Of a stretch of DNA of 37,118 bases, positions 10,815 to 34,279 are shown one piece after another. The position numbers and the translations under genes are program-made. The stretch spans positions 1-37,118 of the forward strand of contig JAFSLV010000023.1 of the NCBI GenBank assembly GCA_017448245.1, written 5' to 3'. The DNA comes from Lachnospiraceae bacterium (GTDB lineage: Bacteria; Bacillota; Clostridia; Lachnospirales; Lachnospiraceae). Within the stretch, counting starts at the first letter, position 1. Each line of letters begins with the position of its first letter. Below the pieces are notes generated by a model. It saw only the letters and a program-made list of their open reading frames with translations. It did not search any database and was not told the origin of the DNA.

Positions 10815-11816
10815 ATGCTGGAAAATAAAACGATACTCGTCACCGGCGGCACGGGTTCCTTCGGACACCGCTTTACGGAGTATCTGCTCAAACACGAAAA
10901 TCCGGGGAAAATCATCATCTATTCCAGGGACGAGTACAAGCAGTTTCTGATGTCAAAGGAAGAGACCTTTGCGAAAAACGCAAAAAAGATCCGCTTCTTT
11001 ATCGGGGACGTGAGGGACGGGGCCCGTCTTGAGCGCGCGATGGAGGGGGTTGACTATGTCGTGCATGCCGCGGCCCTCAAGCAGGTGCCGACCTGCGAAT
11101 ACAATCCGACGGAAGCGATCCGCACCAACGTGAACGGCGCGGAAAATGTCATCAACGCGTCGCTCAATACGGGCGTGAAGCGCGTCGTTGCGCTCTCGAC
11201 CGACAAGGCGGTCGGTCCCGTCAATCTGTACGGTGCGACCAAGATGGTGAGTGACAAGCTCTTCATCGCCGCCAATGCCTACGCCGGCAACAAGGACATC
11301 AATTTTTCGATCGTGCGCTACGGCAATGTCGCGGGCTCGCGCGGCTCCATCATCCCGTTTTTCAGGGAGCTGATCGACGCGGGAGAAAAGGAACTGCCGA
11401 TCACGGACTACCGGATGACACGCTTCTGGATCTCTCTGCCGGAGGGCGTGCGTCTCGTGATGAAGGCGCTCACGGAGGCGACGGGCGGAGAGACCTTTAT
11501 CTCCAAGATCCCTTCCTTTCATGTCAAAGACCTGGCGGAGGCGATGTGTCCCGGTATCGGCACCAGAGAGGTCGGCATCCGTCCCGGGGAAAAGATCGAC
11601 GAGGTGATGGTGACGGCGGAGGACGCGCCCTATACGAGGGAGTATGACAAGCATTTTATCATCTATCCGCAGGTGACCTTCAACGAGAGACAGCGCATCG
11701 ACGAGAGCGGGAAGAAGGTGCCGGAAGGCTTTGTATACAGCTCCGCCAACAATACGGAGTGGATGGACATGGAAGAGATCCGCCGCAGACTCCCCGAGGC
11801 CTTTGAGGGACACTGA
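10815..11816 (+). CDS. pseB-like: PseB/FlaA1-like UDP-GlcNAc 4,6-dehydratase (inverting)
   Basis: The 333-residue extended SDR has the NAD-binding GGTGSFG at 11-17, the STDKA motif at 128-132 and the YGATK pair Y139/K143. It has no membrane segment. The soluble form, the YSRDE-KQ segment and the C-terminal SSANNTEW motif match PseB rather than the membrane-bound PglF type. PseB turns UDP-GlcNAc into a 4-keto-6-deoxy-L-arabino intermediate, the first step to pseudaminic acid and related L-sugars. GGGGAGG precedes the ATG. The 44-base gap before it is one of the few real intergenic gaps in this part. PseC, PseG and PseI homologues are not visible here, so the end product is not pseudaminic acid from this window alone. 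CapE-type enzymes are the main alternative. Confidence 0.87.
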   Translation: MLENKTILVTGGTGSFGHRFTEYLLKHENPGKIIIYSRDEYKQFLMSKEETFAKNAKKIRFFIGDVRDGARLERAMEGVDYVVHAAALKQVPTCEYNPTEAIRTNVNGAENVINASLNTGVKRVVALSTDKAVGPVNLYGATKMVSDKLFIAANAYAGNKDINFSIVRYGNVAGSRGSIIPFFRELIDAGEKELPITDYRMTRFWISLPEGVRLVMKALTEATGGETFISKIPSFHVKDLAEAMCPGIGTREVGIRPGEKIDEVMVTAEDAPYTREYDKHFIIYPQVTFNERQRIDESGKKVPEGFVYSSANNTEWMDMEEIRRRLPEAFEGH

Positions 11817-19765: not shown

Positions 19766-22275
19766 GACATCTGATCGGCGGCGCGATCCTTGCCTGCACG
19801 GTGCTGCTGATCCTTGCGATCTATCCCGCGAGGATCTTCAGGAAGGAGCAGGTCTTTTCTCCCCGCACGCAGTTTGCCCCGCTTCCCGCGGAAGCGGTGA
19901 ACAAGGAGAGGAATCTCCGGCAGGCCTTTTTGCCGCAGTATGACCGCCTCTCTTCGCTCGAGGTATGGGTGGAGAGCCTCGACGCGGGGCGCTATATGAT
20001 CGCGACGCTCTATAACGAAAAGGAGGTCGCGATCGCGCAGCGCTATATCGATCTGGGCACATATGAACTCCCGGGCTTTGTGTCGATTCCTCTCGGCGTC
20101 GGCTGCCATGTGGGAGAGCGGCATGTATTGCTGCTCGAAAACCGCTTTTCGACCTATCGCACGGGCATCGTCTTTACGGACAGCGAAAGCGCGCAGGTCC
20201 TGCAGGGACTCTTCTACGGATGGGATCCCGTGCCAGGCATGCAGCTGCGGATGATCCTTCATTATGATCTGCCGGTCTCCAAAAAGGCATCGCTCCTCTT
20301 CATGGGACTGGCCGGCATCCTCGGCGCGGCACTCTTTCTTGCGGTGCGGAGATTTTTTGCAAAGCATCCGGAAAAGGACGCGATCCTTCTTCCCGCACGG
20401 GTTTTGGGATACGGACTCACGGGGGCGTCGGTGGTCTTCTATACGGCCCTCTTTGTCTGCAACCTGCCGTTTCGGCTCTTTGACTTACGGCCCGTCGAAT
20501 GCAGCTTTTATGCGCTCGGCATCGTGATCGCGGCGCTCATGACGCTCGGTGCGATCCGGCGATGCTTCTTTGAGGACGCGGAAGCGCTCCCTCTGATGAA
20601 AGGGGAAACGGACGACATGCCCGGAGCGGTATCCGCGGGGGGTGAAGCACCCTGCGGCATCAGAGAGCATCTGGTGAGCGTGCTGTTAGCGCTTGCCCTG
20701 CAATATACCTGCAACTATGTCAACGGCATCGTCGACGCGATGCATACGGACGCGAGACGCGGGATGCTTGTCTGTCTCTTTGCGGCCTGTGTGCTGCTGC
20801 TCATCGGTACGCATCCGCTGAAGAGACTGTCCGCACTCTTCCGGAGGATGAGCGTCTACGCGTATCTGACGGCACTCACCGGAATCGTGCTCCTGATCTT
20901 TCGTAACGGCAGGATGTGGATCACCTGGATGGTTGTACTCTGTGCGGTTCTGTTTTTTGCGGCGGCACCGTACGCAAGTAAGGGGCAGTGGGGGACGATC
21001 TTCCGGAACGCGGCGATGCTGCATTTTCTGTTATCGATGGTCTACTGCCTGCTCTTTCGCGCGTACCAGGCCTACGGTTATACGCGGTACGGATTTGTCT
21101 TCAGCACGGCGACGGTGACGGGAGAGTACATGAGCGCCATGTGTGCGCTGTGTGCGGTACTCGTGCTTTCCGCACTTGAAAGAACGCGGGGAGAGGCGCT
21201 TATCGTGCGGATCAAAAAGGCATGGATTCCTCTTTGCCTCTTCGGTCTGACGGCCTCCTATACGCTCTTTACGATCTCCCGCATCGGTTATGTGACGGCG
21301 GCCGCCGCGGTATGCGTGCTTGTCCTTGTCGCATCGTGCGGCAGACGGATGATCGTGCGCGCGTTTTGCGGTGCCTGCGCGCTGCTCCTTGCGGCGTGTG
21401 CGGTCTTTCCCGCGGCCTTTACGATGCAGCGCACGCTCCCCGCGCTCATCGGGCGCCACCATGTGTACGAGGGACCGGAGGAGACGACGACGCAGCCGAT
21501 GATCCTCGGAAGGACGGACCCCGGCAGTTCCTTTTATATCAGCATCGAGCGCTTTGCGGTGCTCTTCGGGGAGAGGATCCTCGGACTTCCCGCCCCCTTT
21601 TACTTTTATCCGTATGACGAGATCGAAAATTATTATGACGATTATTCCTTCCGCTATGTCGACAGCGGCTTTTCTCCGGAGAAAGGGCATCTCTATCCGC
21701 CGGGCATGAAGGTGCCGGTTGAGGAAGCGGCACCCGCGGAAGAAGAAGCGGCACCGGCGCATGAAGAGGGGGCATCCGGCGAAGAAGTGACCGCGGAGGA
21801 AGAGGCCGCACCGGGCGGAGAAACGTCCGCGGAGAAGGCGCCTGCGGAAGGAGAACCCCCCGCGGAGGAGAAAGAGGCGCCCGCGGAGGAGGAAGCAGAT
21901 GTCTCGAACGGCCGCCTCGACATCTGGAGATCCTATATCGCGGAGCTCAACATGACGGGACATCCGGGCATGTCGGGGGAAAACACCAAAGGGATCCACG
22001 CGCACAATATCTATCTGCAGACCGCCTTTGACTGCGGGATTCCGGCCGGCGTGTTGTTTTTTGCATGGATCGGGATTACAATGTGTGTGGGCATCTTCCG
22101 CTATTTCAGGGACGGCAGGAAGACACAGGATCTCCTCGCGCTTGCGGCTGCGGCATCTTTTGCGCTTGTTGGCCTCGGGGAATGGAGCTTTCATCTGTGC
22201 AATCCTGTGACGCTTCTGTTTTTGTGCGGCATCGCACCCTGGATGACAAGACGGGAACGGTCTGGCAATGAATAA
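19744..22275 (+). CDS. O-antigen ligase/Wzy-like membrane protein with N-terminal extracytoplasmic domain and acidic insert
   Basis: At 843 residues this is about twice the usual length. After a first helix (9-28) comes an outer domain of about 145 residues that looks beta-rich, then about ten helices. The O-antigen ligase region is near the C-terminus, with GRLDIWRSYI and HAHNIYLQTAFDCGIPAG (about 746-763), the loop that carries the catalytic histidine in WaaL/PglL. Between a YPPGMKVP stretch and that motif lies an insert of about 60 residues (659-719) made almost only of Glu, Ala, Pro and Gly. It starts inside the preceding gene (22-base overlap), with GGAGG before the ATG. It either polymerises repeat units or transfers glycan to an acceptor; sequence alone does not decide. 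Confidence 0.83.
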   Translation: MRKTVCLRHLIGGAILACTVLLILAIYPARIFRKEQVFSPRTQFAPLPAEAVNKERNLRQAFLPQYDRLSSLEVWVESLDAGRYMIATLYNEKEVAIAQRYIDLGTYELPGFVSIPLGVGCHVGERHVLLLENRFSTYRTGIVFTDSESAQVLQGLFYGWDPVPGMQLRMILHYDLPVSKKASLLFMGLAGILGAALFLAVRRFFAKHPEKDAILLPARVLGYGLTGASVVFYTALFVCNLPFRLFDLRPVECSFYALGIVIAALMTLGAIRRCFFEDAEALPLMKGETDDMPGAVSAGGEAPCGIREHLVSVLLALALQYTCNYVNGIVDAMHTDARRGMLVCLFAACVLLLIGTHPLKRLSALFRRMSVYAYLTALTGIVLLIFRNGRMWITWMVVLCAVLFFAAAPYASKGQWGTIFRNAAMLHFLLSMVYCLLFRAYQAYGYTRYGFVFSTATVTGEYMSAMCALCAVLVLSALERTRGEALIVRIKKAWIPLCLFGLTASYTLFTISRIGYVTAAAAVCVLVLVASCGRRMIVRAFCGACALLLAACAVFPAAFTMQRTLPALIGRHHVYEGPEETTTQPMILGRTDPGSSFYISIERFAVLFGERILGLPAPFYFYPYDEIENYYDDYSFRYVDSGFSPEKGHLYPPGMKVPVEEAAPAEEEAAPAHEEGASGEEVTAEEEAAPGGETSAEKAPAEGEPPAEEKEAPAEEEADVSNGRLDIWRSYIAELNMTGHPGMSGENTKGIHAHNIYLQTAFDCGIPAGVLFFAWIGITMCVGIFRYFRDGRKTQDLLALAAAASFALVGLGEWSFHLCNPVTLLFLCGIAPWMTRRERSGNE

Positions 22276-24151
22276 CAGGAACGCAGCAAAAAACAATCAG
22301 AATTTCGGGATGCTTCTGCGCCGCAGGATCGCACTCGTCATCGTGGACGTTGCGAGCGTGATCATTGCGTCCTTTCTCGGACTCCTGATCCGGTTTGAGC
22401 TCTCCTTTTCCTCGATCCCCGCGTATTTCCTCACGCCCGTCGAGAAGGCGCTTCCGCTGACGGTGGTCGTGACGCTCGTCCTCTTCTATGTCTTTCGTCT
22501 GTATCATTCGATCTGGGCGTTTGCGGGAGAAAAGGAGATGCAGAATCTCGTGATCGCCGGATTTTGCTCGGGAATGGCCGATGCGCTGATCCTGCAGTTT
22601 TTCAAGGTCGAGAGCATCGCGGTGCCCAAGAGTTTTTACTTTTTATATACCTTTGTGCTGATCTCCCTTGTCTTTGTGACGCGCTTCAGCTATCGTTTCC
22701 TGCGCGGCGTCCGTCACCGGCAGGGCAATAAGGATAATGAAACGGCCGTGATGATCGTGGGCGCGGGAGAGGCCGGCAATACGATCACCAAGGAGATCGT
22801 GACGAGCGGCTATTCCACGATGACGATCCGCTGCATCATCGACGACGATCCCGGCAAGTGGGGACGCTATATCCAGGGCATCCGCGTCATCGGAGGCAGG
22901 GACAAGATCATCGAGTGCGCCGATCTCTACAGCATCGAGGAGATCATCATCGCGATACCGTCGCTCGGCAGCAAACAGATGTCGGAGCTCCTCAATATCT
23001 GCAAGGAGACCAACTGCCGTCTGCGCGTCCTGCCCGGCGTCTACCAGCTCGTCAACGGCGAGGTCGACATGAGCAAGCTCCGCGAAGTCGACGTCGAGGA
23101 TCTGCTCGGGAGAGATCCGGTGCAGGTCGATATCGACTCGATCATCGATTACGTGAGCAAAAAGACGGTGCTCGTGACGGGCGGCGGCGGCTCCATCGGG
23201 AGCGAGCTGTGCCGGCAGATCGCCTCGCACCGGCCCGCCCATCTGATCATCCTCGATATCTACGAGAATAATATCTACGAGTTGCAGCAGGAGCTCGAGC
23301 ATCTCTATCCCGATGTGCGGATCACGATCCTGATCGCGTCGGTGCGGGACAAAAAGCGCATCGGGCATCTGTTTGAGATGTACCGTCCGGACATCGTCTA
23401 TCACGCGGCGGCACACAAGCATGTGCCGCTGATGGAGGCGTCCCCCTCGGAGGCCGTAAAAAACAATATCTTTGGCACGTGGTCCTGCGCGCTGGCCGCC
23501 GCCATGCACGGCACGAAACGTTTTGTGCTGATCTCGACCGACAAGGCGGTCAATCCGACCAATATCATGGGCGCTTCGAAGCGCGTCTGCGAGATGATCG
23601 TACAGACCTTAAACCGCATGCACGATACGGAATTTGTCGCCGTGCGCTTCGGCAATGTTCTGGGGTCTTCGGGGTCCGTCATCCCGCTCTTTAAAAAGCA
23701 GATCGCACAGGGCGGCCCCGTCACCGTCACCGACAAGGACATCATCCGCTACTTTATGACGATCCCCGAGGCGGTGTCGCTGGTGCTGCAGGCGGGCGCC
23801 TATGCCAAAGGCGGAGAGATCTTTGTCCTCGACATGGGAGAGCCCGTGCGGATCCTCGATCTTGCGGAAAATCTCATCAAGCTCTCCGGCTACCGCGTGG
23901 GAACGGACATCGAGATCGTCTTTACGGGTCTGCGCCCGGGAGAAAAGCTCTTTGAGGAGATGCTGATGGATGAAGAGGGACTGCAGGAGACCGATAACAG
24001 GCTCATTCATATCGGACATCCGATTCCGGTGGAAGAGGACCGCTTCTTTGTACAGCTCGAAGCACTGAAGGAAGCCGCCACGGCGGAGGACGCGGAGGAG
24101 ATCTGCCGCATCATGAAGGAGATCGTGCCGACCTATCACAGCGAGGTATGA
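22268..24151 (+). CDS. pglF-like: PglF/WbpM/CapD-like membrane UDP-HexNAc 4,6-dehydratase
   Basis: The 627-residue protein has four N-terminal helices (about 15-140), a first Rossmann-like domain (VMIVGAGEAGNTI near 160), then a long SDR domain with VTGGGGSIGSEL near 300. The catalytic region is STDKA at S423-A427 and NIMGASK, with M434 and K438: the tyrosine of normal SDRs is methionine, as in PglF and WbpM. The enzyme removes water from UDP-GlcNAc to give UDP-4-keto-6-deoxy-GlcNAc (D-series), precursor of bacillosamine, QuiNAc or FucNAc. A PglE-like aminotransferase and a PglC-like PGT lie at 26573 and 27847, beyond a two-gene inverted island. This is the last plus-strand gene before the island. 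Confidence 0.93.
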   Translation: MNNRNAAKNNQNFGMLLRRRIALVIVDVASVIIASFLGLLIRFELSFSSIPAYFLTPVEKALPLTVVVTLVLFYVFRLYHSIWAFAGEKEMQNLVIAGFCSGMADALILQFFKVESIAVPKSFYFLYTFVLISLVFVTRFSYRFLRGVRHRQGNKDNETAVMIVGAGEAGNTITKEIVTSGYSTMTIRCIIDDDPGKWGRYIQGIRVIGGRDKIIECADLYSIEEIIIAIPSLGSKQMSELLNICKETNCRLRVLPGVYQLVNGEVDMSKLREVDVEDLLGRDPVQVDIDSIIDYVSKKTVLVTGGGGSIGSELCRQIASHRPAHLIILDIYENNIYELQQELEHLYPDVRITILIASVRDKKRIGHLFEMYRPDIVYHAAAHKHVPLMEASPSEAVKNNIFGTWSCALAAAMHGTKRFVLISTDKAVNPTNIMGASKRVCEMIVQTLNRMHDTEFVAVRFGNVLGSSGSVIPLFKKQIAQGGPVTVTDKDIIRYFMTIPEAVSLVLQAGAYAKGGEIFVLDMGEPVRILDLAENLIKLSGYRVGTDIEIVFTGLRPGEKLFEEMLMDEEGLQETDNRLIHIGHPIPVEEDRFFVQLEALKEAATAEDAEEICRIMKEIVPTYHSEV

Positions 24152-24190: not shown

Positions 24191-25150
24191 TTATGAGGCG
24201 AGGTCTTTTGCCTGCTGCATGAGCGATGCCTGACGCAGGATGCCGCGGGCGGTCTCTTCGCGTAACGAAGCGTCTTTCGTGCATCGGAGAAAATGCCTTA
24301 TGGAATTGGCAAAGGAAGGATCCGGGGAGAGCGCAACGCGCTCTTCTTTATTTTGTAATGAAATCAGGGCTTCCGGCGTATGGTCGTCCGGCGCCGTGAA
24401 AATCCTTCCGGTCGTGAGCATCCCTTTTGAGCCTTCCGCTTCGAGCGCGCAACGGTAGAAATGGTCCATGCCGAAGGCAAGCTGTGCGGTGAGGCCTTCG
24501 TCATTTTGCATGACGGCCGTGCCGCCGGTGTCGACCGCGGAGTCCGCGGGCCTGTCGAGTGCGCAGTGCACGATACGTGCGCTTTCTCCGAGGAGACGCA
24601 ATCCCAGACGTATCGTATAGCAGCCGGCATCCAGAAAGGCACCCCCGCCGTCCTCCTTGCGGTAGCGGAAATCGCCCGCGGGTCTTCCGGGAAAACAAAA
24701 AGCAAGACGGTAAAAGCGGATATCGCCGATCCGGCCCTCTTTCAGAATCTCTTCGATCTCCCGCAGCTGCTTATGATACAAAAACGTGAAATTTTCATGC
24801 AGCGCAAGACCTTTTGTACGGGCGGTGTCCGCAAGGAGCGCTGCCTGTTCGTATGTGACGGTAAAGGGCTTTTCCATCATCACGTGTTTGCCCGCGGCAA
24901 GCGCCTTCATCGCCCAGGTATAGTGCTGTGCGGGCACCGCGGGGATATAGACGGCATCGACTTCGGGAGAGGTGACGAGTGCGTCCGGGTCGTCAAAGAG
25001 CATGCCTCCGAAATCCTTTGCGAGCCGGGCGGCTTCTTCTTTTTTGGTATGATACGAGATGCCCGCAAAGGAAGCTTCTTCGATATGCGCGAGGGAAGGT
25101 AAGAATCTTCTGTTTGCAATCTCTGCGGGACAAAGAATGGCGATCTTCAT
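24191..25150 (-). CDS. Gfo/Idh/MocA-family oxidoreductase, probable NDP-sugar 3-ketoreductase
   Basis: The 319-residue protein has the N-terminal NAD(P) domain and the family signature EKPF with catalytic K94, followed by the substrate-side D174 and Y178 in DAGCYTI. In deoxysugar pathways, members such as KijD10 reduce the 3-keto group left by the 2,3-dehydratase, and that enzyme is encoded directly upstream on the same strand. That pairing is the main argument for function. An oddity is the nucleotide-binding loop, which reads LCPAEIANRRF where GXGXXG is normal, so the glycines are replaced. GGAGG precedes the start. It converges on the PglF-like gene with 39 bases between stops and no clear terminator. 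Confidence 0.85.
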   Translation of the reverse strand: MKIAILCPAEIANRRFLPSLAHIEEASFAGISYHTKKEEAARLAKDFGGMLFDDPDALVTSPEVDAVYIPAVPAQHYTWAMKALAAGKHVMMEKPFTVTYEQAALLADTARTKGLALHENFTFLYHKQLREIEEILKEGRIGDIRFYRLAFCFPGRPAGDFRYRKEDGGGAFLDAGCYTIRLGLRLLGESARIVHCALDRPADSAVDTGGTAVMQNDEGLTAQLAFGMDHFYRCALEAEGSKGMLTTGRIFTAPDDHTPEALISLQNKEERVALSPDPSFANSIRHFLRCTKDASLREETARGILRQASLMQQAKDLAS

Positions 25151-25178
25151 GGAGGGACCTCCGTGGTCGCGCGGCGCG

Positions 25179-26525
25179 TCAGATCGGAATCAGGGAAATC
25201 AGGTTGCGCAGCTGGATATTGAGGCAGTTGGACGACATGATCAGCGCGCACAGCGTCGACAGATCGACCCACATGTATTCCGCGGGAAGCGCTTCGCGCG
25301 GCAGCGCGTCGTACGGGATGCGGACGATGACGTTGCGGTTTTGCTCGTGATAGAAGCGCCCGCCCTCCTCGGAGAGGATGATGTCGACGATGACGTCCTT
25401 ATCCGGCATCTTTTTTAACAGTCCGGAGACATAACGCTCGACCGGATTGTCCCTGTCCGCCACATGCGTCGATTCCCACTGGATCGCGGGTCCCATCTCG
25501 AGCGAGTCAAAGGAGCCGATCTCCGGCGTTGCTTTGATGAGATATTCGGTGATGCCTTCTTTTTCCCTCGCGGGCAGCACGAAGAGTCCCGTGCCCGTCG
25601 CCTTTAAGAGCGGCTGCGTCCAGTGTCCGACCTCGCGTCCCGCGATCTCGATGTCGAAAAAGCGGATCTCGAAGGGGGCTTCTTTTTTGGAGACGATCCC
25701 GTACTCGTCCGCGCGCCAGTCGATCAGCTGGTTGAGCGGGGAAAAGACGGATTTGGTATCGTGCAGCATTTTGTAATTGTTGAGCGTCAGAAAAACGTCC
25801 GCGAGATAATGCCGGTCCGTGATCGGATGCTCCTTTTGCATGATGAGATAGGGCAGGCCCGAGAGCACGGTGCGGGAGGACATGTTGACGAGATTTTTGA
25901 GCTTTAACATCTCCTTTAACTGACCGAGCGTCATCCATTTGAAATTGGGCAACACCTCGATGTCCTCGTCGATCAGGAGGATGATGTTGCGGTTTCTCTT
26001 TTTGTAGAAGCGTGAGGCCTGCTCGGTCTGGATCTGGTCGTAGATGATCCGGTAGCGGTGCGCGTTTTCGAAATAGTCAAAATAGGGCGGAAGCACCCCT
26101 CCGTGCGCGCGGGTAAAATTGCTCTTGGTCGCCTGCAGGGTCGGGGAGAGCTGCACGTAATTGACGTTGCCGGGCTCGATCTTGGCCTGCATGAGAAAGT
26201 GGAGCCGCCCGTCGATGACCTTGCCGATGATGCCGAGGAATCCGATCTCCTGCTGCGCGATGACGGGCTGTTCGTGGAGGAAATTGTCGTCCACAAAAAA
26301 GCGCGCGCCGCGCACGGCAAAAAACGAGCGTTTGCGGTTTAAGACCACGCCGTCGACGTCGTCATAGAACCAGAACGTATCCTCCGCAAGGGAGATCTCG
26401 CGGATGTGGACAGTGGTGGTCTTATTGATCTCGTCGATCCAGTCCGTGATCTCTTCCATCGAATGTACGCCGCCCGAACGGTCGCGGATGGAGGATAATA
26501 ACAACTCGGGAAGATGGTCTGTCAT
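25179..26525 (-). CDS. NDP-hexose 2,3-dehydratase (EvaA/TylX3 family)
   Basis: The 448-residue protein is built of two related halves: QTEQASRFYKKRNRN in the first and SEEGGRFYHEQNRN in the second. The motifs LQATKSNFTRAHGG and KLKNLVNMSSRTVLSG are characteristic of NDP-4-keto-6-deoxyhexose 2,3-dehydratases. These remove the C2 hydroxyl to give a 3,4-diketo sugar, which a 3-ketoreductase (the next gene) then reduces. The family is best known from antibiotic 2,6-dideoxysugars and is less common in polysaccharide loci. The usual substrate maker, RmlB, is not in the window. The ATG at 26525 has no Shine-Dalgarno sequence but sits 7 bases after an extended -10 element; an internal ATG at residue 23 is the alternative start. 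Confidence 0.9.
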   Translation of the reverse strand: MTDHLPELLLSSIRDRSGGVHSMEEITDWIDEINKTTTVHIREISLAEDTFWFYDDVDGVVLNRKRSFFAVRGARFFVDDNFLHEQPVIAQQEIGFLGIIGKVIDGRLHFLMQAKIEPGNVNYVQLSPTLQATKSNFTRAHGGVLPPYFDYFENAHRYRIIYDQIQTEQASRFYKKRNRNIILLIDEDIEVLPNFKWMTLGQLKEMLKLKNLVNMSSRTVLSGLPYLIMQKEHPITDRHYLADVFLTLNNYKMLHDTKSVFSPLNQLIDWRADEYGIVSKKEAPFEIRFFDIEIAGREVGHWTQPLLKATGTGLFVLPAREKEGITEYLIKATPEIGSFDSLEMGPAIQWESTHVADRDNPVERYVSGLLKKMPDKDVIVDIILSEEGGRFYHEQNRNVIVRIPYDALPREALPAEYMWVDLSTLCALIMSSNCLNIQLRNLISLIPI

Positions 26526-26572: not shown

Positions 26573-27847
26573 ATGAAAAATGAGAGGATTTATCTGTCTT
26601 CCCCGACCATGCACGGGGAGGAAATGACCTATATCCGTCAGGCCTACGAGACCAACTGGATGTCGACGGTGGGGGAAAACTTAGACGCCGTCGAGGAGCT
26701 GTGTGCCGAGGCGTGCGGGACACGGTATGCGGTCGCGCTCGCCAACGGGACGGCGGCGCTGCATCTGGCGATCCGTCTTGCGGGAGAAGAGCTCTATGGC
26801 AGGAAGGAAGCGTACGCGGGGACGCTTTCGGGGCAGAGGGTCTTTTGCTCCGACATGACATTTGACGCGACCTGCAATCCGATCGCCTACGAGGGCGGGG
26901 AAGCCGTCTTTATCGATACGGAATCCGATACCTGGAACATGGACCCCGAAGCGCTCGAAAAGGCCTTTGCGGCCTTTCCCGACGTGCGGATGGTCGTTCT
27001 TGCCCATCTCTACGGGACGCCCGCAAAGATCGACGCCATCCTCGATGTCTGTAAACGCCACGATGCCGTTCTGATCGAGGACGCGGCGGAGTCGCTCGGC
27101 GCTTCCTTTGACGGAAAGAAGACGGGCGGCTTTGGCAGACATAATATCATCTCCTTTAACGGCAACAAGATCATCACGGGCTCCGCGGGCGGCGCTTACG
27201 TCACGGACGATGCGGAAGCGGCGAAAAGGATCCGCAAATGGTCGACGCAGGCAAGGGATGACGCGCCCTGGTACCAGCATACGGAGCTCGGTTACAACTA
27301 CCGGATGAGCAATGTCATCGCCGCTGTCATCCGCGGACAGTTTGCGTATCTTACGGAACATATCGAACAGAAAAAAGCGATCTATCTGCGATACAGGGAA
27401 GCCTTTGCCGATCTGCCGCTTTCGATGAATCCCTTTGACGCACAGAGGGCGAAGCCCAACTACTGGCTCTCCTGCATCCTGATCGACCGCGCAGGCATGT
27501 GTGAGCAGACGCGGACGGATCATCAGGCGACCTTTGTCCCCGCGAAGGGCAAAAGCTGCCCCACGCAGATCATGGAGGCGCTTGCCGGAGAAAATATCGA
27601 ATCGCGCCCGATCTGGAAGCCGATGCACCTGCAGCCGGTCTACGCGGGACATCCCTTTGTGACGAGGGAGGGGGTGTTTGCGGCGGACGCGGCGACTGTC
27701 ACGGCCGACACGGTGGCGGACGGCGCCATGCAGCGTCCCGTCGATGCGGATATCTTTGAGCGCGGTCTTTGTCTTCCGAGTGACAACAAGATGACACCGG
27801 AACAGCAGGACAGGGTGATCGATATCATCCGCGGGTGTTTTGACTGA
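26573..27847 (+). CDS. pglE-like: PglE-like DegT/DnrJ/EryC1 aminotransferase
   Basis: The 424-residue PLP enzyme has SFNGNKIITG with the PLP lysine K199, the ALANGTAALHLAIRLAG cofactor loop, EDAAESLGAS, and WSTQARDD followed by GYNYRMSNV. These match PglE, which adds an amino group at C4 of UDP-4-keto-6-deoxy-GlcNAc, the product of PglF. The substrate could come from the PglF-like gene upstream. An alternative is use on the 2-deoxysugar made by the divergent genes. It is the first gene of a plus-strand operon, and the stop overlaps the ATG of the PglC-like gene by one base (TGATG). The start lacks a Shine-Dalgarno sequence. An insert rich in Ala, Thr and Val near residues 370-385 is not seen in the Campylobacter enzyme. 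Confidence 0.9.
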   Translation: MKNERIYLSSPTMHGEEMTYIRQAYETNWMSTVGENLDAVEELCAEACGTRYAVALANGTAALHLAIRLAGEELYGRKEAYAGTLSGQRVFCSDMTFDATCNPIAYEGGEAVFIDTESDTWNMDPEALEKAFAAFPDVRMVVLAHLYGTPAKIDAILDVCKRHDAVLIEDAAESLGASFDGKKTGGFGRHNIISFNGNKIITGSAGGAYVTDDAEAAKRIRKWSTQARDDAPWYQHTELGYNYRMSNVIAAVIRGQFAYLTEHIEQKKAIYLRYREAFADLPLSMNPFDAQRAKPNYWLSCILIDRAGMCEQTRTDHQATFVPAKGKSCPTQIMEALAGENIESRPIWKPMHLQPVYAGHPFVTREGVFAADAATVTADTVADGAMQRPVDADIFERGLCLPSDNKMTPEQQDRVIDIIRGCFD

Positions 27848-28506
27848 TGGGAAAGCCAGGACGCGTGCACCGGAAAGGCTTTTATGAATTTTGCTTCAAG
27901 CGCCCGCTGGATCTGGTCTGTACGACTATTGCGCTGGTGCTGCTTTCCCCCGTGATGGGCGTGACGGCGCTGCTGGTGCGGCTGAAGCTCGGAAGCCCCG
28001 TGATCTTTGCGCAGGACAGGCCCGGCCTGATCGATCCGAAAACGGGGAAGGAGAGGATCTTTAAGCTGTACAAATTCCGCTCGATGAATGACAAAAAGGA
28101 CGCGGAAGGAAATCTGTTGCCGGATGAAGAACGCCTTACGTCCTTTGGAAGAAAGCTGCGCGCGACGAGCCTCGACGAGCTGCCGGAGCTCGTCAATATC
28201 ATCCGGGGCGATATGTCGCTCGTGGGTCCGCGCCCCCTGCTCGTGCGCTATCTTCCGCGCTACAGCGCACGACAGCGCAGGCGCCATGAGGTGCGCCCGG
28301 GCTTTACCGGCCTCGCACAGGTCAACGGGCGAAACGCGATCTCCTGGGAGCGGAAATTTGATTATGACGTGCGCTATGTCGATCATGTCACCTTTGCGGG
28401 GGATGTCAGGATCCTCCTCGAAACGGTTCGGACGGTACTTTCGCGCGACGGGATCAGCTCCGCGACGAGCGCGACGATGGAAGAGTTTATGGGGAACGGG
28501 GAATGA
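27847..28506 (+). CDS. pglC-like: PglC-like small phosphoglycosyl transferase
   Basis: The 219-residue monotopic PGT has a re-entrant hydrophobic segment (about 22-45), GSPVIFAQDRPG, and the catalytic dyad D110-E111 in SLDELPELVN. It continues with GDMSLVGPRPLLVRYLP and the LAQVNGRNAISWERKFDYDV segment typical of PglC. It transfers a diamino-trideoxyhexose 1-phosphate to undecaprenyl phosphate in the bacillosamine pathway. The gene order pglE-pglC-(ATP-grasp) suggests it acts on the aminated, acylated product. It is much smaller than the PGT at 2008 and lacks that enzyme's N-terminal helices. It is coupled to both neighbours by overlaps. Confidence 0.92.
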   Translation: MGKPGRVHRKGFYEFCFKRPLDLVCTTIALVLLSPVMGVTALLVRLKLGSPVIFAQDRPGLIDPKTGKERIFKLYKFRSMNDKKDAEGNLLPDEERLTSFGRKLRATSLDELPELVNIIRGDMSLVGPRPLLVRYLPRYSARQRRRHEVRPGFTGLAQVNGRNAISWERKFDYDVRYVDHVTFAGDVRILLETVRTVLSRDGISSATSATMEEFMGNGE

Positions 28507-30161
28507 AAAAGACGACGATCCTTTTTACCGGCGCGGGACGCCGGATCGAACTCATCACGGCCTTCCGGGAGGCGTCTCTTACGGAAGGCATCCCGCTTTC
28601 GATCATCGGCGCCGACATGGCAAGGGAAGCGCCGGTGCTTTCTTTTTGCGACAGGGTGCGGCAGGTCGTTCCGATCAGCGATCCATCTTATATCGAAGAG
28701 CTCCTTGCGATCTGCGGGGAGGAAGCGGTCGATCTGCTGATTCCGACGATCGATACGGACCTGCTCCTTCTTTCACAAAACAGGGAGCGGTTTCTCGCAC
28801 AGGGCACGAGGGTACTGATCAGTGAGGAAGAAAAGATCAGGCTCTGCCGTGACAAGAATCTTACGGGAGATTTTTTTGCAGGCTGCGGCTTAAAAGCACC
28901 CGCGACCGTGCATGACATCGCGGCGTATGCGGGTCCCTTTCCCGCCTTTATCAAACCAAAGGACGGATCGAGCTCGATCGGCGCACACCGCGCGGAGACA
29001 GAAGAAGCACTTGCGCATTACGCAAGGGAACTCGATGATTATGTCATACAGCCCCTGATCGAAGGGGAGGAGTATACGATCGATATCTGCTGCGATTTTG
29101 AGGGCCATACGATCTCGATCGTGCCGCGCATCAGACAAAGAGTCCGCGCGGGAGAGGTGCTGCAGACAAAGATCGTCATGGACGACGCACTGATCCGCGC
29201 TTCCGAAGCGGTCATCCGCGCGTTTCGTCCCTGCGGTCCTATCACCGTGCAGGCGATCCGTCATAAGGAAACGGGTGAGGATTATTTCATCGAGATCAAT
29301 CCCCGCTTTGGCGGTGGCAGCCCCCTTTCGATGGCGGCAGGCGCCGACAGCGCACGGGCGATCCTCAGACTCCTTGCGGGTAAGGAACCCGAACGCTATC
29401 CCTTTATCGAGGACGGTGCGGTCTATAACCGCTTTGACCGCTCGGTGAAGGTCACGGCGGGCGTAAAAAGACCGAAGGTCGAAGGCGTTATCTTTGATCT
29501 CGACGATACGCTCTACAGGGAAAAGGATTTTGTCAGGAGCGGTTACGCGGCGGTCGCGTCCTACCTCGGGGAAGAAGCGTATGCGGAGGTGATGTGGCGC
29601 TATTTTGAAGCAGGCCTTCCCGCGATCGACCGTCTCCTTTCCGAGATCGGGAAGGACCATGAAAAGGAAGCCTGCCTGCGCGTCTACCGCACGCATGAAA
29701 AGGGATACCGGATGTATCCGGGCGCGGAGGAGATGCTTTTGACACTGCGCGATCTCGGGATCCGCACCGGCATCATCACGGACGGCAGGGAAGAAACACA
29801 ACAGGCCAAGATCCGTGCCTTTGATCTGAGGGACAGGGTCGACGACGTGATCATCACGGACGCGCTCGGAGGAGAACAGTTCCGCAAGCCCTGCGACATC
29901 GCCTATCGCATCCTGCAAAGAAAATGGCGGATTCCTTTTTCGCGGATGATGTATGTGGGAGACAACGCGGACAAGGATTTCGGCGCGGTCTTTACGCTTT
30001 CGATGCAGGGGATCTTTTTGCGCAACAAGGACGGCGTGCATGACAGGGACAGCTTTGATGACTGGACGCAGTCCCATGCGGGAGGCCGCGTGATACGGAT
30101 CGATCACACGGAGGGCGCCTTTGGCGCCGTGCTGCGGCACATACTCGGGGAGGATATGTGA
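28503..30161 (+). CDS. ATP-grasp ligase fused to HAD-superfamily hydrolase
   Basis: The 552-residue protein has an ATP-grasp part (about 1-315) of the carbamoyl-phosphate-synthase-like type, with FIKPKDGSSSIG (149-160) and YFIEINPRFGGGSPL (261-275), which bind ATP and metal. The HAD part (about 327-552) has all four motifs: DLDDT (332-336), ITDG (425-428), K462 and GDNADKDF (486-493). ATP-grasp enzymes join a carboxylate to an amine through an acyl phosphate. The place right after pglC is the same as the fused ATP-grasp domain of Neisseria PglB2, which is tied to a glyceramido sugar. The HAD part could supply the free acid by removing a phosphate; that is inference. No frameshift sign at the domain junction. 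It starts in an ATGA overlap. Confidence 0.88.
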   Translation: MKKTTILFTGAGRRIELITAFREASLTEGIPLSIIGADMAREAPVLSFCDRVRQVVPISDPSYIEELLAICGEEAVDLLIPTIDTDLLLLSQNRERFLAQGTRVLISEEEKIRLCRDKNLTGDFFAGCGLKAPATVHDIAAYAGPFPAFIKPKDGSSSIGAHRAETEEALAHYARELDDYVIQPLIEGEEYTIDICCDFEGHTISIVPRIRQRVRAGEVLQTKIVMDDALIRASEAVIRAFRPCGPITVQAIRHKETGEDYFIEINPRFGGGSPLSMAAGADSARAILRLLAGKEPERYPFIEDGAVYNRFDRSVKVTAGVKRPKVEGVIFDLDDTLYREKDFVRSGYAAVASYLGEEAYAEVMWRYFEAGLPAIDRLLSEIGKDHEKEACLRVYRTHEKGYRMYPGAEEMLLTLRDLGIRTGIITDGREETQQAKIRAFDLRDRVDDVIITDALGGEQFRKPCDIAYRILQRKWRIPFSRMMYVGDNADKDFGAVFTLSMQGIFLRNKDGVHDRDSFDDWTQSHAGGRVIRIDHTEGAFGAVLRHILGEDM

Positions 30162-31273
30162 TGCGGGTGCTGATGCTGTGCAAAAACGCGGAGATCGGCG
30201 GCCTTACGATGTGCACCGGCAATCTCGCAAGGAGCCTTGAGTCCTATTGCGGCATCCGGACGGTCATCGCGATCTGCGAGGGAGAGAGCGTACACAGCAC
30301 GCTTGCGGATCTCGAGACGCATATCGTGCCCTTTGATACAAAGAATCCGTTGCGGATCATCCGCAATTACAGAACCGTCGCAAGGCTGGTGCGCGAAAAG
30401 GAGATCGACGTCCTCCACGCGCAAAACAGGATTCCCGCATTGTACGCGGCTCTCTATCATTTTTTTCACCGCAGGGTCCCGTATCTCTGGGCCAATCACC
30501 AGACGCCGATCCCCGCGGGATTTTTTCACCGGCGGATGACGCGCTACGGATATAAGGCCGTCGCCGAGGGAGAAAACGGGAAAAAGCTCCTGATCAGGGA
30601 TCTGAAGATCCCCGCAAGGGATGTGGAGGTGATTAACCTGGGCGTCGAGCTCGGCGCCATCCGAAAAACAAGCGATGAAGAGCAGCGGGCGCTGAAAGCC
30701 CGATACGGCATCGGAGAGGACGAAAAGGTGCTTCTGCTCTATGGCAGGCTCGACCGCTCGAAGGGACATCTGCATCTTCTCAGCGCGCTGGAGGGACTGA
30801 CGGAGTATCCGTTCAGGGTCGTCTTCCCGGGCGAGGACGATGTCTATAAGAAAGAGATCATCGAGGACGCAAAAAAACGCAACATGGAAGACCGCCTGAT
30901 CTTCCCGGGCTTTATCCGGGGCAATTCCTGGCTTTCGATCAGCGATCTGATGGTGCTGCCCTCGCGCCAGGAGGGCTTTGGCATCGCCAACATCGAAGCC
31001 TTTGCGCTGCATGTGCCGGTCATCCGCTCAAAGACCGGAGGCTATGCGGAGATGCGGGATCTGTGCTTTGGCATGGAGTACGGCGATGTGACGTGTCTGA
31101 AGGAGCTGCTTGCACGCTTTTTTGCGGGGGATCCCGCCTTTAAAGAAAAGGCGGATCTCGCGGAGAAGGAGGTATCGCGCTTTTCAACGGAAAAGGAAGC
31201 AAGTGCCTATGCGGACCTCTATATGAGAGCCGTGCGCGACAGCGCGGGAAAGTATGTGGGGGTAAGCGCATGA
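30161..31273 (+). CDS. GT4 family glycosyltransferase
   Basis: The 370-residue GT-B enzyme begins VLMLCKNAEIGGLT, with the glycine-rich loop of the N-terminal domain. The C-terminal domain has LLYGRLDRSKGH and PSRQEGFGIANIEAFALH, the GT4 donor-binding motif with the paired glutamates. The ATG at 30161 is preferred over the GTG at 30158: both overlap the previous stop, but the GGGGAGG site is 7 bases before the ATG and only 4 before the GTG. It probably adds an early sugar in the glycan begun by the PglC-like enzyme. Specificity is unknown. Confidence 0.88.
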   Translation: MRVLMLCKNAEIGGLTMCTGNLARSLESYCGIRTVIAICEGESVHSTLADLETHIVPFDTKNPLRIIRNYRTVARLVREKEIDVLHAQNRIPALYAALYHFFHRRVPYLWANHQTPIPAGFFHRRMTRYGYKAVAEGENGKKLLIRDLKIPARDVEVINLGVELGAIRKTSDEEQRALKARYGIGEDEKVLLLYGRLDRSKGHLHLLSALEGLTEYPFRVVFPGEDDVYKKEIIEDAKKRNMEDRLIFPGFIRGNSWLSISDLMVLPSRQEGFGIANIEAFALHVPVIRSKTGGYAEMRDLCFGMEYGDVTCLKELLARFFAGDPAFKEKADLAEKEVSRFSTEKEASAYADLYMRAVRDSAGKYVGVSA

Positions 31274-32379
31274 AGGTGCTCATCCTTGCCAATAACGATA
31301 CGGGCCTTTATCTCTTCCGGAAGGAGCTCCTAGCGAGACTTACGGGTGAGGGACATACGGTCTATGTGTCGGTGCCTTCCGGTACGATGATCCAGCGCCT
31401 GAAGGGTCTCGGTTGTAAGGTCACGACCTGTGATCTGCTCGAGCGCCGCGGAAAGAACCCGGTAAAGGATCTGTCACTCCTGCATTATTATGACCGGCTT
31501 CTTTTGCATGTGCGGCCGGACTGCGTCCTGAGCTATACGGTCAAGCCCAATGCCTACGGCGGGATGGCCTGCGCAAGGAGAAGGGTGCCCTTCATCGCCA
31601 ATGTCACGGGACTCGGCGACGCGATCATGCGGGGCGGGATGCTCGCAAAGGTCACGCTCCTCCTCTACCGGCAGGGGTTGAAGAAGGCAGACTGCGTCTT
31701 CTTTCAGAATGAAGAGAACCTCTCCTTTTTCAGGGAGCGCGGAATCACAAGAGGCAAGACCAGGCTCCTTCCCGGGAGCGGCGTCAATACGCGGGAGTAT
31801 CCCCTGATGCCTTATCCCGCGGACGAAGGAGAGATCCGTTTTCTCTATGCGGGCAGGATCATGAAGGACAAGGGGATCGAAGAGCTGCTCACCGCGATGC
31901 GCAGACTCCGTAAGGAAACGCGCATCCTTCTCGACATCGCGGGCGCATGCGACGAGGACTATGAAGAGGCGCTGCGCACAGCGGAAAAAGAGGGACTGCT
32001 TTTCTGGCACGGCATGGTCGAAGACGTCCGTCCCCTCTACGCGCGGGCACACTGCGTGGTGCTTCCGAGTTACCACGAGGGGATGAGCAACGTGCTGCAG
32101 GAAGCGGCGTCCTGCGGCAGGGTCACCATCGCGAGCGATGTGAGCGGCTGCAGGGAGATCATCGACGACGGCAATACGGGATTTTTGTGCAAGCCGCACG
32201 ACGCGGAGAGCCTCTACCGGGCGATGGTGCGTTTTTTACAGATACATCCTTCCGTGCGGGAAGAGATGGGAAAGGCCGCAAGGAAGCGGATGGAAGAGAG
32301 ATTTGAACGTGGGCGGGTCATCGATGCCTATCTCGAAGAGACGGGAGAGATCTTTGACCGCGCGCGTAAGGAACGATAA
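31270..32379 (+). CDS. pglA-like: GT4 glycosyltransferase, PglA-like
   Basis: The 369-residue GT-B protein has VLSYTVKPNAYGGMACARR and PFIANVTGLGDA in the N-terminal domain and LYAGRIMKDKGIEELL, then PSYHEGMSNVLQEAASCG in the C-terminal domain. This pattern is that of PglA and related capsule GT4 enzymes, which add an N-acetylhexosamine to undecaprenyl-linked bacillosamine. Presence in the same operon as the PglE and PglC homologues supports that reading. It starts in an ATGA overlap and ends one base before the NusG-like gene. The donor is most likely a UDP-HexNAc, but this is not proven. Confidence 0.85.
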   Translation: MKVLILANNDTGLYLFRKELLARLTGEGHTVYVSVPSGTMIQRLKGLGCKVTTCDLLERRGKNPVKDLSLLHYYDRLLLHVRPDCVLSYTVKPNAYGGMACARRRVPFIANVTGLGDAIMRGGMLAKVTLLLYRQGLKKADCVFFQNEENLSFFRERGITRGKTRLLPGSGVNTREYPLMPYPADEGEIRFLYAGRIMKDKGIEELLTAMRRLRKETRILLDIAGACDEDYEEALRTAEKEGLLFWHGMVEDVRPLYARAHCVVLPSYHEGMSNVLQEAASCGRVTIASDVSGCREIIDDGNTGFLCKPHDAESLYRAMVRFLQIHPSVREEMGKAARKRMEERFERGRVIDAYLEETGEIFDRARKER

Positions 32380-32962: not shown

Positions 32963-34279
32963 ATGTCACTCTATCAGGATCTGAAGGACAAAAAGGAAAC
33001 ACTCTCCGTCATCGGGCTTGGCTACGTCGGGATGCCGATCGCGGTCGCTTTTGCAAGGGAGGTCAGCGTCATAGGCTTTGACGTCAATGAAGCAAAGGTC
33101 GCTCTCTATAAGGAAGGAAAGGATCCGACCAAGGAGGTCGGGGATGACGTGATCGCACAGACGAGCGTGCATTTTACGTCGGACGCCAAAGAACTCGAAA
33201 AGGCAAGATTCCATATCGTTGCCGTGCCGACGCCCGTCGCAAGCGACCATACACCGGACCTTGCGCCGGTCGAGAGCGCAAGCAGGATCCTCGGCGCGCA
33301 TCTGACGAAGGGATCGGTCGTCGTCTATGAATCGACGGTCTATCCCGGCGTCACCGAAGAGATCTGCGTGCCGATCCTCGAAAAGGAAAGCGGCCTTACG
33401 TGCGGCGTGGATTTCAAGGTCGGCTATTCGCCCGAGCGCATCAATCCGGGCGATAAGGTGCACCGCTTAGAGACCATCGTGAAGATCGTCTCCGGGATGG
33501 ACGAAGAGACACTCGATACGGTCGCGAAGGTCTATGAGATCGTCGCAAAGGCCGGCGTCCACCGGGCGGAATCGATCCGCGTCGCGGAGGCCGCCAAGGT
33601 CATCGAAAATTCACAGCGCGACATCAATATCGCTTTTATGAACGAGCTCTCGATGATCTTTCACAGGATGGGGATCGATACCAAGCATGTGCTTGAGGCC
33701 GCGGGAACCAAGTGGAATTTTCTTCCCTTTTCTCCGGGGCTTGTCGGCGGACACTGCATCGGCGTCGATCCGTATTATCTGACCTACAAGGCAGAGGAGC
33801 TCGGATATCATTCGCAGATCATATTGTCCGGGCGCAGGATCAATGACGACATGGGCGGCTATGTCGCGAGGGAGCTCGTCAAGAACCTGATTGCACAGGA
33901 TGTGCCGGTCAAGCACGCACGCGTCGCGATTCTCGGATTTACGTTTAAGGAAAACTGTCCCGATACGCGCAATACCAGGGTGATCGATATCTGGAACGAG
34001 CTGAAGGATTACGGGATCCTGCCGATCGTATGCGACCCGGAGGCGGACGCACAGGAAGCAAAGGCACTCTACGGGATCGATTTTGTGGAGGCTTCCGGGA
34101 TCCGCGACATGGACGCGGTGCTCGTTGCCGTCTCGCATGACGCGTTCAGGGCGCTCGGCAAAGAGGAGATCGAAGCCTTTTATGACAAGGAGCTAAGGAC
34201 CAAGGTGTTCTTTGATCTGAAGGGGATGTATCACAGGGAGGATTTTGCATCGCCCGCATGGGCGTACTGGCGGATGTAA
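32963..34279 (+). CDS. UDP-N-acetylhexosamine 6-dehydrogenase (WbpO/TviB-like)
   Basis: The 438-residue nucleotide-sugar dehydrogenase has VIGLGYVGMPIAVAFA (NAD loop, near 16-31), the YESTVYPGVTEE segment, the linking helix with GYSPERINPGDK, and the catalytic cysteine C265 in VGGHCIGVDPYYL. It oxidises C6 of a UDP-sugar to a uronic acid with two NAD. The sequence style is that of WbpO/TviB (UDP-GlcNAc or UDP-GalNAc) rather than UDP-glucose dehydrogenase. The product would give the polymer a negatively charged HexNAcA residue. No epimerase of the TviC type is present. AGGGAGCAGGT precedes the ATG. Confidence 0.9.
   Translation: MSLYQDLKDKKETLSVIGLGYVGMPIAVAFAREVSVIGFDVNEAKVALYKEGKDPTKEVGDDVIAQTSVHFTSDAKELEKARFHIVAVPTPVASDHTPDLAPVESASRILGAHLTKGSVVVYESTVYPGVTEEICVPILEKESGLTCGVDFKVGYSPERINPGDKVHRLETIVKIVSGMDEETLDTVAKVYEIVAKAGVHRAESIRVAEAAKVIENSQRDINIAFMNELSMIFHRMGIDTKHVLEAAGTKWNFLPFSPGLVGGHCIGVDPYYLTYKAEELGYHSQIILSGRRINDDMGGYVARELVKNLIAQDVPVKHARVAILGFTFKENCPDTRNTRVIDIWNELKDYGILPIVCDPEADAQEAKALYGIDFVEASGIRDMDAVLVAVSHDAFRALGKEEIEAFYDKELRTKVFFDLKGMYHREDFASPAWAYWRM

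Follow-up and report, generated by a model that had tools for sequence, protein, structure and literature searches.

This study concerns a gene cluster of a Lachnospiraceae bacterium which probably attaches an unusual acyl group to a bacillosamine-type (Bac-type) amino sugar, and which lies in a window of 37,118 nucleotides (nt), the whole stretch of DNA analysed (GenBank assembly GCA_017448245.1, contig JAFSLV010000023.1, positions 1 to 37,118; source genome of 2.54 Mb, 99.47% complete). The families of the open reading frames (ORFs) in the window were assigned using Pfam and NCBIfam profile searches. The core of the cluster consists of three genes on the forward strand: a pyridoxal-phosphate (PLP) aminotransferase of the PglE/LegC type, predicted to make the 4-amino group (26573..27847; DegT 258 bits), a PglC-like phosphoglycosyl transferase (PGT) of 219 amino acids (27847..28506; Bac_transf 191 bits), and a fusion gene (28503..30161) whose product shows PylC-like_N, ATPgrasp_Ter and ATP-grasp_3 matches followed by a HAD domain. 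The coupling of these genes in this order, which an earlier note made from the sequence alone had described, was confirmed as a tight operon in which consecutive genes overlap, the end of pglE with the beginning of pglC by 1 nt and pglC with the fusion gene by 4 nt; the gene order is not due to chance because it recurs across many genomes. The PglE-like protein, the only DegT aminotransferase seen within the window, had the LegC family TIGR04181 as its top NCBIfam match (296 bits, below the cut-off of 420).

A PglF-like membrane UDP-GlcNAc 4,6-dehydratase of 627 amino acids, predicted to catalyze the first step, is encoded at 22268..24151 on the forward strand (Polysacc_synt_2 402 bits, and CoA_binding_3). 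The earlier note had placed it just upstream; the gene is where it was said to be, although "just" was loose, as two genes on the minus strand (24191-26525) separate pglF from pglE. These two genes encode a Gfo/Idh oxidoreductase and an NDP-hexose 2,3-dehydratase (PF03559, 387 bits), and in other loci of the genus, unlike in the window, pglF and pglE are mostly adjacent.

The fusion protein comprises an ATP-grasp part (approximately residues 1-315; 28503..29447, forward strand), a predicted carboxylate-amine ligase to which all ATP-grasp domain matches (residues 6-300) were confined, and a HAD part (approximately residues 326-552; 29478..30161, forward strand), a predicted class IA phosphatase (PF00702, 68 bits, residues 327-492). 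The ATP-grasp part belongs to the PRK12767/PylC-like branch of the superfamily fold, scoring 257 bits against the NCBIfam PRK12767 equivalog (below its cut-off of 390), and the ATP/Mg residues K118, K151, E264, and N266 are present. Its nearest solved relative in both fold and sequence is 2pn1 from Exiguobacterium. The claim that the HAD part carries all four catalytic motifs held by the definition of class IA phosphatases (D332xD334, T426, K462, D487/D492), and conservation was high in 94 aligned HADs (D332 in 91 with 3 gaps, D334 in 92 with 2 gaps, K462 and D492 in 94, D487 in 93), so that the domain looks catalytically active. The predicted model of the fusion protein was sound as a whole and had a predicted local distance difference test score (pLDDT) of 84.3 and a predicted template modelling score (pTM) of 0.75, with residues 270-275 below a pLDDT of 50. 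Across 58 loci with ATP-grasp, HAD, and PglC, ATP-grasp distances were correlated with HAD distances at r 0.884 and with PglC distances at 0.478, and the partial correlation between ATP-grasp and HAD given PglC was 0.86, a value reached by 0/999 permutations; the ATP-grasp and HAD parts coevolve and belong together.

The distribution of this pair was determined in a genus sample (79 genomes including Butyrivibrio strains), in an even phylum sample (398 genomes, threshold E<=1e-60), and in 80 named loci among the matches listed, which partly are the same records as the genus or phylum loci. A HAD-linked ATP-grasp was present in 14/79 genus genomes, fused in 12 and as adjacent genes in two (G456, G466). 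In the phylum sample 19/398 genomes matched, and in the stretches fetched for the 18 regions besides the window a same-strand HAD lay near the ATP-grasp in 15, PglC in 4, and NeuB in 11, 10 of the latter also having a HAD. In the 80 listed loci the HAD was fused to the ATP-grasp in 38 and encoded next to it in another 38 (76/80 in total), and four loci had none, frequencies that are not rates, as these loci were chosen by similarity to the fused protein. PglC was located within 2.5 kb in 57 of these loci, PglC together with PglE in 49, and PglF in addition in 30; PglD accompanied PglC and PglE in two, and NeuB was found in four. The search for further genomes with the fusion near PglC, which the earlier note had suggested, was thus successful, and its phrase "single-protein route" proved too strong as a statement of novelty, separate adjacent genes being as common as fusions. 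A fusion unique to this genome was considered and rejected, since it recurs in genus genomes and named loci; it is found in many listed Lachnospiraceae loci, and other features of the cluster are more informative.

Other arrangements were observed as well. In 2/80 listed loci (L189, L197) PglC and ATP-grasp form one ORF that is followed by the HAD, and plasmid p3 of Priestia filamentosa carries an aminotransferase, a sugar transferase, an ATP-grasp, and a HAD in a row. By Pfam, the HAD beside the ATP-grasp is fused to LicD in the former two loci (L189:8957-10417, L197:4790-6256), and a HAD fused to a PIG-L de-N-acetylase lies beside the ATP-grasp at L148:8961-10274. At the thresholds used, no unbroken PGT-ATP-grasp fusion was found in class (17 genomes) and phylum (395 genomes) samples around G498. 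No annotated fusion was present among 12 of 1,309 plasmid records, one of which (H22) carries no annotation, and a weak scan of viral contigs with two patterns from the N-terminus of a two-row alignment retrieved no relative.

Gene neighbourhoods were compared in 76 of the 78 genus genomes besides that of the window (all but G002 and G481), using the DNA that surrounds either the PglF module or the ATP-grasp. The position between PglC and a GT4 glycosyltransferase, here termed the slot, holds one of three ATP-grasp lineages, which are HAD-linked, PLP-enzyme-linked, or lone. The GT4 enzyme, designated GT4b and presumed to transfer the next sugar, is encoded at 31270..32379 on the forward strand of the window (Glycos_transf_1 112 bits), where an additional GT4 (30158..31273, forward strand) lies between the fusion and GT4b; in other genus loci GT4b usually directly adjoins the slot without an additional GT4. 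In 59 typed genomes (lineage one 22, lineage two 24, HAD-linked 13) PglC was found within 1.5 kb of the ATP-grasp in 58/59, and GT4b likewise in 58/59; in the other 17 the stretch ended or was without the slot. A HAD was fused to or beside the ligase in 13/13 HAD-linked genomes and 0/46 others, a split that is partly by construction, as the profile models used for typing were seeded from tree groups already differing in HAD. A PLP enzyme of the CuyA/D-cysteine-desulfhydrase family (a call based on two scanned examples, both below cut-offs) lay beside the ligase in 13/24 lineage-two genomes and 0/35 others, and perhaps makes the amino acid that is ligated. In L269, L264, and 11 other lineage-two loci this enzyme is situated between PglC and a lone ATP-grasp. 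Residues P208, R209, R211, Q250, and R310 of the ATP-grasp part occur in 98-100% of 94 HAD-linked ligases, the lone ligases of the same slot (n=25) having S/L/A, K, K, D, and M/K at the respective sites.

The ATP-grasp tree comprised 97 rows after the large Bac groups had been thinned to alternate rows and was inferred using a quick method with Shimodaira-Hasegawa-like approximate likelihood ratio test (SH-aLRT) support only. A HAD-less set of 21 rows was split (98) from a mostly HAD-linked set of 76 rows, the latter mixing Bac-type, NeuB, and other contexts and including six HAD-less rows, at least one of which (L161) is at a contig end. The possible grouping of the ATP-grasp domain with enzymes of unrelated pathways, which the earlier note had named as a ground for doubt, was examined with this tree: the clade consists mostly of ATP-grasps beside PglC or NeuB, though 22 of the 97 rows are HAD-linked and had neither in the vicinity.

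The co-inheritance of slot type with neighbouring genes was determined by counting lineage changes on gene trees of 37 loci with all five genes considered (6 from the HAD-linked lineage, 13 and 18 from the two others), as compared with 200 label shuffles. These genes included the UDP-sugar 6-dehydrogenase (UDPGDH) gene, syntenic and 71-73% identical across the genus loci compared (32963..34279 in the window, forward strand). Three changes were counted for PglC and three for GT4b versus 11 for PglF, 11 for PglE, and 12 for UDPGDH, the shuffled labels giving a mean of about 15.8 and lowest counts of 10-12. In a larger set of unequal row numbers the counts were 3 for PglC (54 rows), 4 for GT4b (52), 9 for PglE (41), and 15 for PglF (48), and because each count was under the lowest of 200 shuffles PglE and PglF retain some signal. 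The boundary of co-inheritance is sharp, since in most loci PglE and UDPGDH directly flank the co-inherited genes. The pattern fits a common amino sugar provided by PglF and PglE and a ligase that alters what PglC and GT4 must recognise. PglC and GT4b also form a single open frame at L043:6731-8461 and L090:10254-12083.

The pathway to N,N'-diacetylbacillosamine (diNAcBac) in Campylobacter and Bacillus proceeds via PglF, PglE, PglD, and PglC, and of its components the window contains the PglF-like dehydratase, which had matches at E<=1e-180 in 75/79 genus genomes, and the PglE-type aminotransferase adjoining PglC. PglD, which the earlier note had found not to be visible, had no match over the TIGR03570 cut-off of 160.8 in the whole genome; the best match (52.9 bits) was a 179-amino-acid acetyltransferase-like ORF between two genes of GDP-sugar type (named by eye). 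TIGR03570 matches over the cut-off were present in 22/79 genus genomes. In 20 PglD/NeuD regions read from 19 of these 22 genomes, 13 contained NeuB, none had an ATP-grasp beside PglC, and a weak PglC was seen in one, at a contig end. None of the 59 typed genomes had PglD at a distance of 3 kb or less from its slot ligase, and 12/14 HAD-linked genus genomes were without a TIGR03570 match at E<=1e-20.

A corresponding arrangement was found in a nonulosonic acid operon (L103) with the order legB-legC-ATPgrasp-HAD-neuC-neuB, in which legB, legC, neuC, and neuB each exceeded the NCBIfam cut-off and the stretch showed no gene labelled as PglD- or GNAT-type. The ATP-grasp/HAD pair presumably occupies the position of LegH in the known pathway, which suggests that in this legionaminic-type operon ATP-grasp and HAD may replace the N-acetyltransferase by the same logic as in the Bac-type clusters. 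In the window, a PseB gene at 10815-11816 scored over its cut-off (511 bits).

Overall, the product of the cluster is probably a Bac-type amino sugar that is linked to undecaprenyl and bears an unusual N-acyl group, the ATP-grasp ligase occupying an exchangeable slot. From their families, PglF and PglE would convert UDP-GlcNAc to a UDP-4-amino-4,6-dideoxy sugar. The ATP-grasp part would then activate a carboxylic acid as acyl phosphate and join it to the 4-amino group instead of the acetyl-CoA enzyme PglD, as gene order, co-inheritance, and precedent suggest. The HAD might strip a phosphate from the acyl donor before ligation or from the acylated sugar afterwards, and a glycerate-type acid derived from phosphoglycerate may be the likeliest single candidate; no acid-making enzyme for the HAD lineage was evident in clusters of 411 unlabelled neighbour genes judged by eye, which resembled LicD, nucleotidyltransferases, and glycosyltransferases. 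The slot would be occupied by different ATP-grasp lineages and different helper enzymes, with matching PglC and GT4. Comparative genomics supports the proposal of the earlier note that an ATP-grasp ligase tied to PglC and the amino sugar acts instead of N-acetylation, and the predicted 4-N-acylation by the ATP-grasp/HAD protein in place of this step is well supported by it; as a whole, the interpretation given in that note is partly supported. In literature titles and abstract openings, which covered subscription journals little, no description of such an ATP-grasp/HAD N-acylation step was found.

Several observations weigh against N-acylation by the ligase. PglD lies between PglC and the fusion in L121 and L129 and just before the ATP-grasp in L148, therefore the ligase is no simple substitute for PglD in these loci. 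Of the HAD-linked genomes, G466 has a PglD-family gene over the cut-off on the contig of its ligase, at a distance of about 150 kb, and a second one below the cut-off, and G485 has two below the cut-off elsewhere. Three genomes (G014, G025, G477) have PglC and GT4b together with no ATP-grasp between them. Four genomes (G008, G015, G485, G487) are without pglE at the locus and each has a 62-65% identical pglE elsewhere; no close pglE was seen in G488, a genome of the HAD lineage that is 83% complete. Because PglC and GT4b lie on either side of the slot, their co-inheritance would also fit transfer as one block without functional need. The ATP-grasp part is under every PRK12767 cut-off and PglE under the LegC cut-off, so that family membership predicts their substrates only broadly, and a matching glycan of these organisms was not found in a literature search at the level of titles and abstract openings. 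The window also encodes a PseH-like GNAT that could acetylate the same amine.

This GNAT (PF13302, fused to a GtrA domain, PF04138; 18704..19765, forward strand) forms the basis of an alternative in which the sugar is an ordinary diNAcBac-like one, acetylated at the 4-amino group by the GNAT, and the ATP-grasp/HAD protein modifies another part of the polymer. PseH is the best match of the GNAT domain, and five related genus loci (L043, L044, L086, L089, L090) also encode a GNAT of this kind. However, the match to the PseH family TIGR03585 (69.8 bits) is below the cut-off of 93.1, a WecE-type dTDP-4-amino sugar transaminase (over its cut-off) is encoded one gene upstream of the GNAT in L043 and L090 and provides another likely substrate, no GNAT was labelled in other genus loci (though many stretches began at PglF and would miss one), and the lineage of the ligase is co-inherited with PglC and GT4b, so that we regard this alternative as improbable. 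Amidation of a uronic acid carboxyl group, derived from UDPGDH, with an amine dephosphorylated by the HAD appears very unlikely. Glucuronic acid is amidated in Campylobacter capsules and in most genus loci that have an ATP-grasp the gene after GT4b is UDPGDH, but this enzyme does not track slot type (12 changes versus 3 for PglC), which weakened UDPGDH as the maker of the ligase substrate, and it was not found in PglE, PglC, ATP-grasp, and HAD loci of Paenibacillus (L095/L185) and a Priestia plasmid (L116).

The role of the HAD allows two further explanations. It could act elsewhere in the polymer pathway, on a sugar phosphate or nonulosonate phosphate, and merely accompany the ATP-grasp, as the ATP-grasp also occurs with NeuB (11/18 phylum regions, 10 with HAD), where a 9-phosphate phosphatase could be needed. 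In Bac-type operons, however, the HAD persists, in many cases as a fusion, although no phosphorylated sugar intermediate is expected there, and its correlation with the ATP-grasp remains after accounting for PglC, which makes this role unlikely. Alternatively, the order of reactions may be reversed, the ATP-grasp ligating a phosphorylated acid (e.g., 3-phosphoglycerate) and the HAD dephosphorylating the acylated sugar afterwards. The coevolution and frequent fusion of both parts and the basic R209, R211, and R310 common to HAD-linked ATP-grasps (K, K, and M/K in the lone ones) point in this direction, but arginines in place of lysines at 209 and 211 are a mild change, and as the lineages are distinct clades these residues may mark ancestry only. 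We tentatively entertain this order of reactions, which is a sub-model of the preferred N-acylation explanation and overlaps with it in probability. A more comprehensive scheme, possible but speculative when all its parts are taken jointly, is that the priming sugar is varied by exchange of a cassette of PglC, ATP-grasp (at least three lineages, with HAD, D-cysteine-desulfhydrase-type PLP enzyme, or none), and matching GT4 on a constant PglF-PglE background, that the HAD lineage joins a phospho-acid (e.g., 3-phosphoglycerate) to the sugar and then removes the phosphate from the product, and that the same pair serves legionaminic and pseudaminic acid pathways.

The N-acyl groups of the first sugar set its recognition by phosphoglycosyl and glycosyl transferases, phages, and immune systems. 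If N-acylation by the ligase is true, a widespread pair annotated merely as "ATP-grasp" and "HAD hydrolase" would gain a function in two large sugar families, and the chemistry of the priming sugar would become predictable from the ligase beside PglC.

Among the known systems, the diNAcBac pathway resembles the window in that relatives of PglF, PglE, and PglC are present in order, and differs from it in that the window is without PglD and has an ATP-grasp in its place. The structure 2pn1, annotated as "carbamoylphosphate synthase large subunit (split gene)", is a 331-residue chain without a HAD part. ATP-grasp genes are also part of flagellin loci, and mutants in CDR20291_0245 of C. difficile (PMC5207246) and sfmE of Shewanella (PMC3765264) have an altered flagellin glycan or mass; according to the accessible parts of these papers, the loci differ in their remaining genes and a HAD partner is not described there. 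In Neisseria, PglB2 is described as an ATP-grasp/PGT protein making a glyceramido-acetamido trideoxyhexose (PMC11130364), in which PGT and ATP-grasp act on a 4-amino sugar and replace the acetyltransferase (PMC11130364, PMC6959607), and ORF8 was inserted together with pglB2 (PMC11130364). As far as the architecture can be compared from the published description, L189 and L197 share the PGT-ATP-grasp fusion and have the HAD next door, while the window encodes the ligase apart from the PGT, in one gene with the HAD. The module is real and conserved, its probable role is N-acylation in the manner of PglB2, and the slot-swapping within the genus was unexpected; if the predicted function is true, what is described for Neisseria PglB2 would also apply in further phyla.

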